Positions 48,492-52,898 of a stretch of 64,000 bases of DNA are shown piece by piece; position 1 is the first letter of the stretch; every line of letters starts with the position of its first letter. Location of the stretch: positions 868,001 through 932,000 of the forward strand of contig NZ_CP076545.1 in assembly GCF_018889955.1 (NCBI RefSeq), read 5' to 3'. The notes beneath the pieces were generated by a model that saw nothing but the letters and a program-made list of their open reading frames with translations, was not told the DNA's origin and ran no database searches. A program made the translations under genes and the position numbers. The DNA comes from Collinsella sp. zg1085. Lineage in GTDB: Bacteria; Actinomycetota; Coriobacteriia; Coriobacteriales; Coriobacteriaceae.

Positions 48492-50042
48492 ATGGAAATC
48501 GTGATTGGCCTCATCTGCCTTTTGGTAGGTGCAGGTGTCGCGGTGATTGTCATGCGCAGTGCTAAAACCGGAAGCATTCGTGAAGCAGACCTTAAGGTAC
48601 AGGCCGCTCAATCGGAAGCTGAACAGGTAGTGCATGACGCACAACGCCAAGCAGACACACTCAAAAAAGAGGCCTTACTTGAGGCAAAAGAGGAGATTCT
48701 TAAGAATCGCCAAGCTGCTGAGGAAGAAAACCGTCAGCGCAAGCATGAAATTCACACCCTTGAGCAGCGTGTTATGCAGCGAGAAGAGACGCTTGATAGA
48801 CGCAACTCTGCTCTCGATAAACGTGAACATCAGCTTTCAGCACAACAAGGTTCACTTGACCGCAAAGCGCAAGAGATTGACCAACTCTATACCAAGCAGC
48901 TGAGTGAACTTGAACGTATTGCCGAGCTTTCGCGTGATGAAGCGCATCGTGAGCTACTTGATACCGTTCGCTCAGAAGTAACGCATAAGGCAGCTACAAT
49001 TATTCGTGAGTCAGAGCAGCGCGTGCGCGCTGAAGTTCAAAAGACTGCGCAAGAGATTATTTCAATTGCTATTCAGCGTACGGCATCAGATCATACTGCT
49101 GAGCTCACGGTTACATCAGTGCATATTCCCTCAGATGACCTAAAGGGTCGCATTATTGGACGTGAGGGTCGCAACATTCGTACCTTTGAGCAGATTTCTG
49201 GAGTTAATCTCGTTATTGATGACACGCCAGAAACAGTTGTATTATCAAGCTTTGATCCGGTGCGGCGTGAGACCGCACGAGTTGCACTTGAAAACCTCAT
49301 TGCTGATGGTCGTATTCACCCTGCACGAATTGAAGAGATGTATCAAAAAGCTGCCTCTTTAGTAGCTGAGCGCGTGCAAGAAGCCGGTGAGCAAGCTGCT
49401 TTTGATTGCGGTATACATGATCTTCACCCTGAAATTATTAAAACGCTTGGAGCGCTACGTTATCGTACGTCCTACGGTCAAAACGTTTTACGCCATTCAA
49501 TGGAAGTCGCTGAACTTGCCGCTATTATGGCAACTGAGCTTAAGGTTGACATCCACGCTGCTAAGCGGGCAGGTCTTCTTCACGACCTTGGTAAAGCAAT
49601 TGACCACGAGGTTGAAGGACCACATGCTGTTATCGGTGCTGAGCTCTGTCGCCGCTATGGTGAAAAGCCGCATATTGTTCATGCCATTGAAGCACACCAT
49701 GGTGACATCGAACCAAATACCGTTTTGGATATTTTGGTTCAAGCAGCAGATGCCATCTCAGCTTCTCGCCCAGGAGCTCGTCGTGAATCGGCGGAAAACT
49801 ATATTAAACGCCTAGAGAAGCTTGAGTTTATTGCTAACTCGCATGATGGCGTTGATCGAACCTATGCTATGCAAGCAGGTCGCGAAGTTCATGTTATGGT
49901 TCAGCCTGATAAAATCTCTGATGCAGATTCGGCAGTTCTTGCGCATGATATTGCTCGCCAGATTGAAGATGAGATGGAGTATCCCGGACAGGTTCGTGTG
50001 GTGGTTATCCGCGAAAGCCGTGCCACTGATATCGCAAAATAA
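48492..50042 (+). CDS. rny: Ribonuclease Y
   Basis: Membrane-anchored endoribonuclease that starts mRNA decay in Gram-positive bacteria. An N-terminal membrane helix (residues 1-22) is followed by a long Glu/Gln/Arg-rich coiled coil (about 30-190). A KH domain has DDLKGRIIGREGRNIRTFEQ. The HD domain has HSMEVAELAAIMATEL and the metal pair in LLHDLGKAIDHEV. The product is 516 residues, full length. AAGGAG precedes the ATG. A GHKL ATPase gene and spoVS follow, where Bacillus has ymdB and spoVS. Confidence 0.96.
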   Translation: MEIVIGLICLLVGAGVAVIVMRSAKTGSIREADLKVQAAQSEAEQVVHDAQRQADTLKKEALLEAKEEILKNRQAAEEENRQRKHEIHTLEQRVMQREETLDRRNSALDKREHQLSAQQGSLDRKAQEIDQLYTKQLSELERIAELSRDEAHRELLDTVRSEVTHKAATIIRESEQRVRAEVQKTAQEIISIAIQRTASDHTAELTVTSVHIPSDDLKGRIIGREGRNIRTFEQISGVNLVIDDTPETVVLSSFDPVRRETARVALENLIADGRIHPARIEEMYQKAASLVAERVQEAGEQAAFDCGIHDLHPEIIKTLGALRYRTSYGQNVLRHSMEVAELAAIMATELKVDIHAAKRAGLLHDLGKAIDHEVEGPHAVIGAELCRRYGEKPHIVHAIEAHHGDIEPNTVLDILVQAADAISASRPGARRESAENYIKRLEKLEFIANSHDGVDRTYAMQAGREVHVMVQPDKISDADSAVLAHDIARQIEDEMEYPGQVRVVVIRESRATDIAK

Positions 50043-50047
50043 CCCAT

Positions 50048-51124
50048 ATGAGCGACTCAAATGAACTGATAGACTTCATCGCGTCAATGTCAGGTGAAGG
50101 CAATCTTCGTGTTGAAGAAAACCTTGGTGAAGGCTTTGTTCGTTTGCGTATTTCTGAGGCAGAGCGTCGCCAAGCTCAACACGATATCCAGCACGTTGAA
50201 GATATCGTTATTGAGATGTTACGCAACGCACGCGACGCTGGGGCTCAAGCTATATATGTTGTAAGTACCAAGGAGGGGCAGCGGCGCACGCTGCTCTTTC
50301 TTGATAATGGTAATGGTGTGCCCGAACATCTTCATGAGCGAATCTTCGATGCTCGCGTAACCTCAAAATTAGAAAGCATGAAGATGGATCGCTGGGGCGT
50401 GCATGGACGCGGCATGGCTCTGTTTTCAATTCGACAAAATACCGAACAAGCTCGCGTTGTGAACAGTATGGTTGATGGCGGCTCGGTCTTTGAAGTGCTC
50501 ATTGATACCGAGCATTTGCCTGAGCGCGCTGACCAGTCAAGCTGGCCACAAGCGCATAAAGTTGATGGTGTGTGGACCTGCGCAAAAGGTCCACACAATA
50601 TCATTCGCACGGTCTGTGAGTTTGCGTTAGAAGAACTGCACGCCTGTGATGTATACCTCGGCACACCAACAGAAATTGCAGCTACTTTATTTGCTCATGC
50701 AAGTTCTCACTTAGATGCAAGCCGTTTGCTTTTTATTGATGACCCACATGATCTGCCTATTATTGAACGCTTGGGTATGAGTTCTGATGCGCAGGAGTTT
50801 ATCGAGATTGCTAGTAGCTTAGGCCTCACGCTTTCTGAACGAACTGCCCATCGTATTTTGGCTCAGCAAATGCCACCCTTAAAGTCAGTCTCAGCCCGTC
50901 TTTTGCGCCAGCGTGACCCAGAACAGATGCGAGAACTTGACCTACTACAAGATCGGCGGGGCTTAAAAATTGCAAAGGATGATTTAGCATCCTTCTCCCG
51001 CGCGCTTGAACGTGATTTTTTAAGTTTAGCCGAGCGATATTATCTATCGCTTAATGGTGAGCCGCGTATTCGTGTTACACGAGGAAAAATCACCGTCAGC
51101 TTTGATATTTCGCACGAGGAATAG
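50048..51124 (+). CDS. MutL-like GHKL-fold ATPase of unknown function
   Basis: I do not recognise a named family. The N-terminal half carries the Bergerat ATP-binding motifs: N-box VEDIVIEMLRNARDAGA (Glu56 as likely catalytic base, Asn60 for Mg), G1 box DNGNG at 86-90, and G2 box GVHGRGMAL at 117-125. The segment VTSKLESMKMDRWGVHGRGM resembles the MutL lid, where TSK and GFRGEAL stand at similar positions. No kinase, histidine or receiver domain is present. The C-terminal 170 residues are helical and charged and match nothing I know. It starts 5 bp after rny and is followed by spoVS after 86 bp. It may serve in RNA turnover, DNA repair or signalling. Confidence 0.75.
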   Translation: MSDSNELIDFIASMSGEGNLRVEENLGEGFVRLRISEAERRQAQHDIQHVEDIVIEMLRNARDAGAQAIYVVSTKEGQRRTLLFLDNGNGVPEHLHERIFDARVTSKLESMKMDRWGVHGRGMALFSIRQNTEQARVVNSMVDGGSVFEVLIDTEHLPERADQSSWPQAHKVDGVWTCAKGPHNIIRTVCEFALEELHACDVYLGTPTEIAATLFAHASSHLDASRLLFIDDPHDLPIIERLGMSSDAQEFIEIASSLGLTLSERTAHRILAQQMPPLKSVSARLLRQRDPEQMRELDLLQDRRGLKIAKDDLASFSRALERDFLSLAERYYLSLNGEPRIRVTRGKITVSFDISHEE

Positions 51125-51210
51125 CGCAAGCCTCATAGTTTGAACTTGCTGAATGACGTGCTATGGGGTACAGTAGCGCTATTAAAAATAGCTCAAACGC
51201 AGGAGAACCC

Positions 51211-51534
51211 GTGGAGTTCCTTAAGATCTCTTCTAAATCATCCCCCGCATCGGTTGCGGGCGCGATTGCCGGTATGGTCAAAGATGGCGTTCCGGTTAAT
51301 ATGCAATGTGTTGGTGCCGGTGCAGTTAATCAGGCAATTAAATCTATAGCCATTGCACGAGGTTTTCTTATTCCTATTGGATTTGATATCTCGTGTGCGC
51401 CTGTTTTTTCTGACATCCTTATTAACGGAGAGATGCGCACAGCTATTAAACTTGCAGTCTATGTACACAAGCTTTCTGTCTCTGGTCTTGATTCATCCCT
51501 CATATCAGATGATCAGGCTCAACAGGTAGGATAA
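51211..51534 (+). CDS. spoVS: Stage V sporulation protein S (SpoVS) family, Alba-like
   Basis: SpoVS proteins are small Alba-fold, probably nucleic-acid-binding proteins, needed for late sporulation in Bacillus but found in many non-sporulating bacteria. The core has LKISSKSSPASVAGAIAGM, GAGAVNQAIKSIAIARGF and NGEMRTAIKLAV, a near-perfect family match. GTG 51211 with AGGAG 5 bp upstream gives 107 residues, including about 20 extra C-terminal residues compared with the roughly 86-residue Bacillus protein. The longer frame from 51163 lacks support. miaB starts 2 bp after the stop. Confidence 0.92.
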   Translation: MEFLKISSKSSPASVAGAIAGMVKDGVPVNMQCVGAGAVNQAIKSIAIARGFLIPIGFDISCAPVFSDILINGEMRTAIKLAVYVHKLSVSGLDSSLISDDQAQQVG

Positions 51535-51536
51535 CA

Positions 51537-52898
51537 ATGCCCCAATTAGAAATCCTTACAGGTAAAACCTATTGCATCAAAACCTTTGGATGCCAGATGA
51601 ATCTACACGACTCTGAGCGTGTAAGCGGACTTTTAGATTCCTTAGGTGCTTTTGAAGCTCAAGATTTAGAGCATGCCGACATTGTGGTCTTTATGACATG
51701 TTGCGTCCGTGAAGCTGCTGATACGCGCCTCTATGGTCAGTGCAACTCGTGTAAGAGTTTACCTGCACCTCCCAGCGGCAAGCGCGTTATTGCCGTGGGA
51801 GGCTGTATTGCACAGCGCGATGGAGAGGGTCTTTTAACTAACGTTGATAATGTTGACGTTATTTTTGGTACGCACGCAATTGCTCATGTCGGTGAACTCT
51901 TGGCTGCAGCTTTTGAAAAGGGTGAACGCCAGATTCTCACCAACGAAGATGAGGAACATGGTGCAACGAGCATGCCATGGCATCGGGCAAGCAATTACCA
52001 TGCATGGGTTCCTATCATGACTGGGTGCAATAATTTCTGTAGCTATTGCATTGTTCCATACGTACGTGGTCGCGAAAAGAGTCGCCCTATGGAGGAGATT
52101 CTTGACGAGGTGCGTATTTTGGCACGTAAAGGTGTGCGTGAGATTACCCTCTTGGGTCAAAACGTTAACTCGTATGGGCGTAATATATATGGCAAGCCAC
52201 GCTTCGCTGAGCTGTTGAGACATGTGGGTGATACCGGAATCGAGCGCATTAGCTTCACCTCCTCGCATCCAAAGGATTTACTTCCAGAAACTATCGATGC
52301 TATGGCTGAGGTTGATGCAGTTGTTCCTCATTTGCATCTTGCTGTTCAGTCTGGATCGAGTCGCGTGTTAAAACTCATGAATCGGCGATATACCCGTGAA
52401 CACTATATCGATGTAATCGATCAGGTTCGTGCACGCATACCGCGTATCGCACTTACCACGGATATCATTGTTGGTTTTCCCGGAGAAACCGAAGAGGACT
52501 TCCTTGAGACCCTCAGCCTTGCCGAGCGCGTTGCCTACTCGCAAGCCTTTACCTTTATCTATTCAAAACGTGAAGGCACACCTGCAGCCGAGATTGAAGA
52601 TTCAACAACACGTGAAGAGATTCTTGACCGCTTTAACCGGCTGGTTCATGTCATTGAGCATACGGCATATGCCTACAATCAAAACTTCCTTCATGAGTGT
52701 GTTCCATCTCTCATTGAAGGCCCCTCTAAAAAGGATCCAAATAAACTCCAAGGTAAAAGCCCTTGGAATCAAACCGTTATTTGTCCGATTCCTGAGGGTC
52801 TACATGTGAAAGACTGTGTTGGCAAAATACTTGACGTTCAAGTTGATACTTCGCGAACCTTTTATCTGGCAGGTACTGCACAGGGTCTTCCTCGATGA
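51537..52898 (+). CDS. miaB: tRNA (i6A37) methylthiotransferase MiaB
   Basis: Converts i6A37 to ms2i6A37 in tRNAs reading UNN codons, acting after MiaA. The UPF0004 domain opens YCIKTFGCQMNLHDSERV, the MiaB signature. TCCVREAA and GGCIAQRDG hold further cluster cysteines. The radical SAM motif is CNNFCSYCIVPYVRGRE, followed by LLGQNVNSYG and VGFPGETEEDF. A TRAM domain closes the 453-residue protein. The next gene, miaA, makes its substrate, and the two overlap by 4 bp (ATGA). Confidence 0.96.
   Translation: MPQLEILTGKTYCIKTFGCQMNLHDSERVSGLLDSLGAFEAQDLEHADIVVFMTCCVREAADTRLYGQCNSCKSLPAPPSGKRVIAVGGCIAQRDGEGLLTNVDNVDVIFGTHAIAHVGELLAAAFEKGERQILTNEDEEHGATSMPWHRASNYHAWVPIMTGCNNFCSYCIVPYVRGREKSRPMEEILDEVRILARKGVREITLLGQNVNSYGRNIYGKPRFAELLRHVGDTGIERISFTSSHPKDLLPETIDAMAEVDAVVPHLHLAVQSGSSRVLKLMNRRYTREHYIDVIDQVRARIPRIALTTDIIVGFPGETEEDFLETLSLAERVAYSQAFTFIYSKREGTPAAEIEDSTTREEILDRFNRLVHVIEHTAYAYNQNFLHECVPSLIEGPSKKDPNKLQGKSPWNQTVICPIPEGLHVKDCVGKILDVQVDTSRTFYLAGTAQGLPR

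Follow-up and report, generated by a model that had tools for sequence, protein, structure and literature searches.

A gene for a 358-amino-acid (aa) ATPase is wedged between rny, which encodes RNase Y, the enzyme that initiates mRNA breakdown, and spoVS in Collinsella sp. zg1085, an arrangement that raises the question of what the protein does and with which of its neighbors it works. Most of the RNase Y partners known so far belong to Bacillus and related bacteria. The stretch of DNA that was analyzed, hereafter the window, spans 64,000 nucleotides (NZ_CP076545.1, positions 868,001 to 932,000). Its initial annotation described the protein as an uncharacterized MutL-like ATPase that occupies the slot of ymdB and proposed it as an ATP-driven partner of either RNase Y or the Alba-like SpoVS. 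The present analysis confirms this observation and supports its interpretation in part. It identifies an RNase Y-linked GHL-type ATPase: the superfamily is known, but the family is new, its genomic partner is unexpected, and its function is hypothetical. The link to RNase Y is firmer than that to SpoVS.

Gene order at the rny locus

The ATPase is encoded by an intact open reading frame (ORF) at 50048..51124 (+ strand, as are all window features described below), whose ATG lies 5 nt behind the rny stop codon. The upstream gene rny (48492..50042) is recognized by TIGR03319 with 698.7 bits against a cut-off of 454.35. On the 3′ side follow spoVS, miaB, miaA, and hflX, the last two named from the gene order of an annotated Collinsella aerofaciens record. 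That record has the same order, including the tRNA methylthiotransferase gene miaB (51537..52898; Radical_SAM and UPF0004), and names the relative of the ATPase merely “ATP-binding protein”.

The interval first given for the observation (50048-51534) takes in spoVS as well (PF04232, E = 1.1e-32). The listed spoVS ORF starts at 51163, and the Pfam SpoVS match covers residues 18-99 only. The true start is probably the GTG at 51211, which stands behind an AGGAG, so that spoVS would occupy 51211..51534 and 51163-51210 would be excess.

The ATPase core

GHKL ATPase is the sole domain type over the Pfam cut-offs. HATPase_c (E = 1.3e-7) delimits a GHKL (Bergerat) ATP-binding core at residues 46-154 (50183..50509), HATPase_c_3 (E = 3.4e-7) covers residues 50-128, and both exceed their curated cut-offs; in the Pfam scan, HATPase_c was matched in all 41 members. 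Conservation, counted over 41 diverse sequences (alignment A3), is concentrated in four motifs that lie exactly where they were first placed: (i) the N-box, E56 to N60 (50213..50227; E56 40/41, N60 41/41), in which Glu precedes Asn by four residues, a GHL ATPase trait, (ii) the G1 box DNGNG, residues 86-90 (50303..50317; D86 41/41, G88 40/41, G90 41/41), (iii) the TSK lid motif, residues 105-107 (50360..50368; T105 41/41, S106 39/41 with T in two, K107 36/41 with R in five), and (iv) the G2 box GVHGRGMAL, residues 117-125 (50396..50422; G117 40/41, G120 40/41, G122 41/41). An N-box Asn with an upstream Glu, a DxGxG, and a lid GxxGxG are the features that define the GHKL/GHL superfamily, and all are present. 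The Glu at N-box position -4 is the catalytic base in GHL ATPases, while histidine kinases usually have Asn there, and the TSK and GxxGxG motifs are MutL/Hsp90-like. Judged by these motifs, the Bergerat ATP site is complete and belongs to the GHL class of ATPases.

The closest characterized relative is the N-terminal ATPase domain of MutL (TIGR00585; PDB 9n2k, 1b62), which shares the GHKL core, the E-x3-N N-box, DxGxG, and TSK. MutL is the best NCBIfam match, with histidine kinases close after, and also the top sequence relative among solved structures in PDB sequence searches. The likeness is, however, confined to the ATPase core: the 358-aa protein aligns to MutL positions 21-101 of 555 only, scores 30.3 bits against a cut-off of 180, and has no sequence match past the core. 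A model of the whole protein (mean pLDDT 76.0, pTM 0.68) was compared with known structures, as the initial annotation had suggested. In VIA-align the best match is the MutL N-domain (162 aligned, model residues 28-288, Z 11.8, rmsd 3.6), and topoisomerase VI-B and the Hsp90-type TRAP1, which share the GHL ATPase fold, reach Z 9.6-11.2; relative to these the protein is much shorter, the aligned part ending near model residue 288. In the Foldseek ranking, human MLH1 and MutL come shortly after the leading histidine-kinase ATP domains (E from 1.1e-4).

MORC and paraMORC proteins share the GHKL ATPase motifs and, in excerpts of PMC2292703, are presented as stand-alone MutL-type ATPases of prokaryotes. 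The MORC S5-domain motif GhXhhpXXRhl, as defined in those excerpts, occurs in none of the 41 sequences. The same excerpts describe MORC/paraMORC genes as sporadic and situated in restriction-modification operons, and restriction-modification or helicase neighbors count as a further MORC trait; as far as the recognized genes show, all 40 loci of the GHKL gene considered here are at rny. No PADLOC anti-phage defense model was matched at E ≤ 1. The description as an uncharacterized GHKL ATPase stands, with no full-length match to a characterized family in Pfam, NCBIfam, PADLOC, PHROGs, or PDB sequence searches.

Regions flanking the core

Residues 1-45 (50048..50182) form a conserved N-terminal arm in which G29, L33, E37, and R41 are found in 41 of 41 sequences. 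Strong conservation before the core is as expected of a dimerization arm, a role known from GyrB and MutL, and by this analogy the segment is a possible dimerization arm; the model is poor there (pLDDT < 50 for residues 1-33).

The C-terminal half, initially annotated as unknown, indeed finds no HTH family match and no confident structural match in the libraries searched, but it is not featureless. A predicted helix-turn-helix (HTH)-like segment, residues 243-282 (50774..50893), contains S263, R265, and R269 in 41 of 41 sequences and has modeled helices at 248-257 and 264-271, with weak structural matches to HTH and non-HTH proteins alike. No HTH Pfam family was matched among the 41 members scanned, and in one member the segment is overlapped by a Nif11 match that stays below the cut-off. 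When the C-terminal half is modeled alone (pLDDT 69.7, pTM 0.47), Foldseek returns no confident match (a ribosomal protein and PEX14 head the list, best E 0.34), and the best VIA-align result, Z 4.5, comes from phage baseplate proteins aligned to the final 50 residues. Across model residues 44-122 (protein 200-278), sigma-54, ArgR, NanR, BusR, VanR, Fur, and Mur score Z 2.2-3.3, and Slx4, leucyl-tRNA synthetase, and calmodulins score like these HTH proteins. An S5 transducer was not recognized among the structural matches listed for this pTM 0.47 model. Matches to the modeled C-terminal half are too weak to claim a fold.

Distribution

Within the class sample, 194 of 197 genomes hold a relative, every best match having E < 1e-50 (mostly one match per genome, in some two or three), and a chance ORF is thereby excluded. 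Among the matches listed, the own genome aside, relatives in the class are 45-72% identical. Two of the three genomes without a match are incomplete (59% and 74%) and likewise lack rny over the cut-off. The third, G163 (locus L159), is a one-contig, reduced genome of 1.4 Mb that has rny, spoVS, and miaB in a row, as well as ricT, and no GHKL gene; it amounts to a natural knockout.

In the phylum sample, 118 of 296 genomes from many family groups carry the gene at E ≤ 1e-10, a count from which 26 of 144 genomes with a best match between 1e-10 and 1e-3 are left out. In the most divergent branch, group f33, what can still be recognized is mainly the ATP domain, along with the HTH-like segment and a few later residues. 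One f33-type member (L116:6983-7909) may bind yet not hydrolyze ATP because Gln stands in place of the catalytic-type Glu.

Beyond the phylum, seven rny-carrying records of Bacillota, Fusobacteriota, and Bacteroidota were searched with the family profile and show no relative at rny. Five of them have matches elsewhere, eight in total with a best E of 4.8e-8; seven of the eight cover the ATP domain only, and five are frames of 630-650 aa, MutL-like by length.

A search of 50,697 phage records gave no match at E ≤ 0.01, none of six pattern matches in viral contigs was confirmed, and tblastn of a plasmid collection found a single match, in the Collinsella record NZ_OY725717.1. This record (L162), labeled “plasmid 6”, measures 899,693 bp, holds pgsA, recA, rny, miaB, and lexA, and looks like a mislabeled piece of chromosome. 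A mobile or phage origin was rejected on the grounds that no phage or viral match was confirmed and that the lone plasmid-collection match is to a chromosome-like record. The gene may have been mostly vertically kept in several Actinomycetota lineages, which is suggested as part of the clamp proposal below and with the same doubt.

Linkage to RNase Y

RNase Y is found in 208 of the 296 phylum-sample genomes at E ≤ 1e-50. Both genes occur together in 117 genomes, the GHKL gene occurs alone in one (a 79%-complete assembly), rny occurs alone in 91, and 87 have neither; this co-occurrence follows lineage, which the Fisher tests ignore. Cut-offs for co-occurrence differ by family, being 1e-50 for rny, 1e-60 for MutS, 1e-20 for YmdB, and the curated cut-off for SpoVS.

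Conservation of the neighborhood, on which the initial annotation relied, was surveyed in relatives and extends beyond the class. Among the 92 genomes listed with both places (of the 117 that hold both genes), the GHKL gene lies directly 3′ of rny on the same strand in 91, and in the 92nd rny stands at a contig end. The gap between the matched stretches in these 91 genomes, for which < 700 nt was required, ranges from -8 to 550 nt with a median of 33, and in many same-order loci rny and the GHKL gene are 1-21 nt apart. In 40 of 40 neighborhoods rny is the nearest recognized upstream gene, a 180-aa frame intervening at L125.

Adjacency has to be read against the stability of the region. In 20 rny loci of non-carriers, no frame matches the family profile, which recovers 40 of 40 known members, and most of these loci keep recA/recX upstream and miaB/miaA downstream. 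Since the block is kept even without the gene, adjacency is partly regional inertia and by itself makes weaker evidence of function. More informative is that the rny side stays constant while the SpoVS side varies. The existence of 91 rny-positive genomes without the gene, together with the complete class member G163, implies that RNase Y has no general need of the protein.

Rate covariation was examined by mirror-tree analysis of 36 shared loci, which gave partial correlations of 0.44 for rny, 0.58 for miaB, and -0.21 for recA; leaving out the four f33 loci changes these to 0.31, 0.62, and -0.12. As support for rny this approach failed, favoring miaB over rny.

Other lineages have additional genes in the same block. 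Between spoVS and miaB, other classes and families carry a gene of ~270-280 aa (L099:8499-9320, L103:5718-6566, L125:5754-6587, L134:8483-9328) that is, by eye, presumably a PHP-domain phosphoesterase (TrpH/YciV-like) and not YmdB; it is absent from the order to which the window belongs. A gene of ~460-500 aa between miaB and miaA (L103:2803-4206, L134:10679-12064, L125:2947-4464), again in other classes and families, resembles by eye what we take to be a MEMO plus AMMECR1 fusion.

The cofactors RicT (YaaT), RicA, and RicF of RNase Y, treated in excerpts of PMC10470536, possibly share the same process, and RicT is described there as binding RNase Y in B. subtilis. RicT/PSP1 is present in 39 of 41 carriers versus 11 of 39 rny-positive non-carriers in a set of 80 hand-picked genomes (41 of the 118 carriers, 38 of the 91 rny-positive non-carriers, and G163), a test that ignores phylogeny. 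Counted by family group, where any member counts, the figures are 19 of 19 carriers versus 9 of 24 rny-positive non-carriers. Because RicT is a separate gene in carriers, the GHKL protein is no stand-in for it; the 358-aa protein itself has no PSP1 match in Pfam. RicT/PSP1 frames (e.g., G000:C1:1387979-1388236 in the genome of the window) measure 447-613 aa in nine of the ten genomes listed from the own genome and its order, 340 aa in G163, and 205-422 aa elsewhere.

Proposed function and alternatives

The best reading of the observed linkage, favored here with reserve, is that an ATP-gated dimeric GHL protein with an HTH-like segment regulates RNase Y, presumably through physical contact. On ATP binding the dimer would close in the manner of MutL, GyrB, and Hsp90; the conserved N-terminal arm would lie at its interface, and the conserved C-terminal helical segment would bind RNA, DNA, or RNase Y. 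The closed clamp could then set the substrate choice or holding time of RNase Y, and ATP hydrolysis would reset it. Within this scheme the GHKL protein would act beside the RNase Y-RicT machinery and not instead of it. The specific proposal of an ATP-gated clamp, in which the ATPase would shut as a dimer around RNA or RNase Y and so make mRNA decay depend on ATP state, is a possibility that we regard with considerable doubt.

A MutL- or topoisomerase-type clamp that acts on DNA in a chromosome or repair role is unlikely, though it has several points in its favor. The gene would then lie near rny because an old recA-recX-rny-miaB-miaA block keeps its order, and recA and recX do belong to that block, as the third and second genes upstream. 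Among solved structures MutL is the best relative by structure and by sequence, the partial correlation of rates with miaB exceeds that with rny, and the HTH-like segment could bind DNA. Against a DNA clamp, the gene sits directly 3′ of rny, and not of recA or recX, in the 91 of 92 listed genomes, and the partial correlation with recA is negative (-0.21). The distribution of mismatch-repair genes bears on the same point. MutS (E ≤ 1e-60) occurs in 21 of the 296 genomes, all f33 carriers, and its absence from 97 of the 118 carriers makes a role in mismatch repair unlikely. MutL over its cut-off was found in none of the 21 genomes searched (relatives, with the genome of the window, G000, included), and the best MutL match in each is, by position, the GHKL gene itself (19 beside spoVS or within the known place; G473 and G474 checked separately). 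The absence of mutS and mutL noted in the initial annotation is thus borne out, no mutS being present in G000 at E ≤ 1e-60. Mismatch repair was rejected as the main reading, MutS being confined to f33 and MutL over cut-off being absent from the 21 genomes.

It is improbable that the protein is instead a partner of SpoVS, in which case Alba-like SpoVS would bind RNA or DNA and the GHKL protein would remodel it using ATP. SpoVS lies ≤750 nt downstream in 33 of 40 loci, and it exceeds the cut-off in 94 of the 296 genomes, namely 83 of the 118 carriers versus 11 of the 178 non-carriers (gene only 35, neither 167; the match in G276 is below the cut-off and not counted). The 35 carriers without SpoVS over the cut-off and the 11 genomes with SpoVS but without the gene nevertheless speak against such a partnership, as do two Bacillaceae records with rny-ymdB-spoVS and no GHKL gene. 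In G473, recA-recX-rny-GHKL lie on one contig and spoVS-miaB-miaA on another (L170, L171), neither segment being near a contig end; G474 has a 588-aa frame between the GHKL gene and spoVS. Of the two neighbors initially called constant, RNase Y has proved so, with rny in 117 of 118 carriers, and SpoVS has not.

Quite improbable is a GHKL sensor or signaling kinase, whether of the histidine-kinase or the SpoIIAB-like serine-kinase type, with RNase Y or some other protein as its phosphorylation target. Many histidine-kinase ATP domains appear among the matches, and SpoIIAB aligns with Z 9.6 over 99 residues. However, the 23 Pfam families matched by the 41 members at E ≤ 10 include no HisKA/DHp, the phosphoacceptor-His domain that precedes the ATP domain in sensor histidine kinases, Glu occupies N-box position -4 in 40 of 41 sequences, and the TSK and GxxGxG motifs point to MutL/Hsp90.

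Replacement of YmdB (TIGR00282) in the rny-ymdB-spoVS slot, with the same job, is hardly credible: the slot is the same in the two Bacillaceae records, and YmdB is found in 0 of 26 class members of the phylum sample at E ≤ 1e-20, but the two proteins are unrelated (metallophosphoesterase versus ATPase), and 32 of the 118 carriers, among the 63 phylum-sample genomes with YmdB, have a YmdB match as well. In the places listed, these YmdB matches of carriers are not at rny. The positional part of the original ymdB comparison therefore holds, and simple replacement is rejected as a rule because both occur in those 32 genomes.

Significance

The open-access literature searched yielded no paper that joins RNase Y with GHKL and, among the titles listed, nothing on a GHKL family at rny, nor is such a family described in the excerpts considered of PMC11621453 and PMC3814617. 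The gene order and distribution described above concern an uncharacterized protein that is nearly universal in its class, to which the gut genus Collinsella belongs, and that is linked with rny across the phylum sample. Should the ATP-gated clamp proposal be true, no earlier member of the GHKL superfamily would, to our knowledge, have had a part in bacterial mRNA turnover. Control of RNase Y by such a protein would provide an ATP-driven control point for mRNA decay in these bacteria, and it would extend to RNA the work of a fold familiar from DNA repair, topology, and chaperoning.
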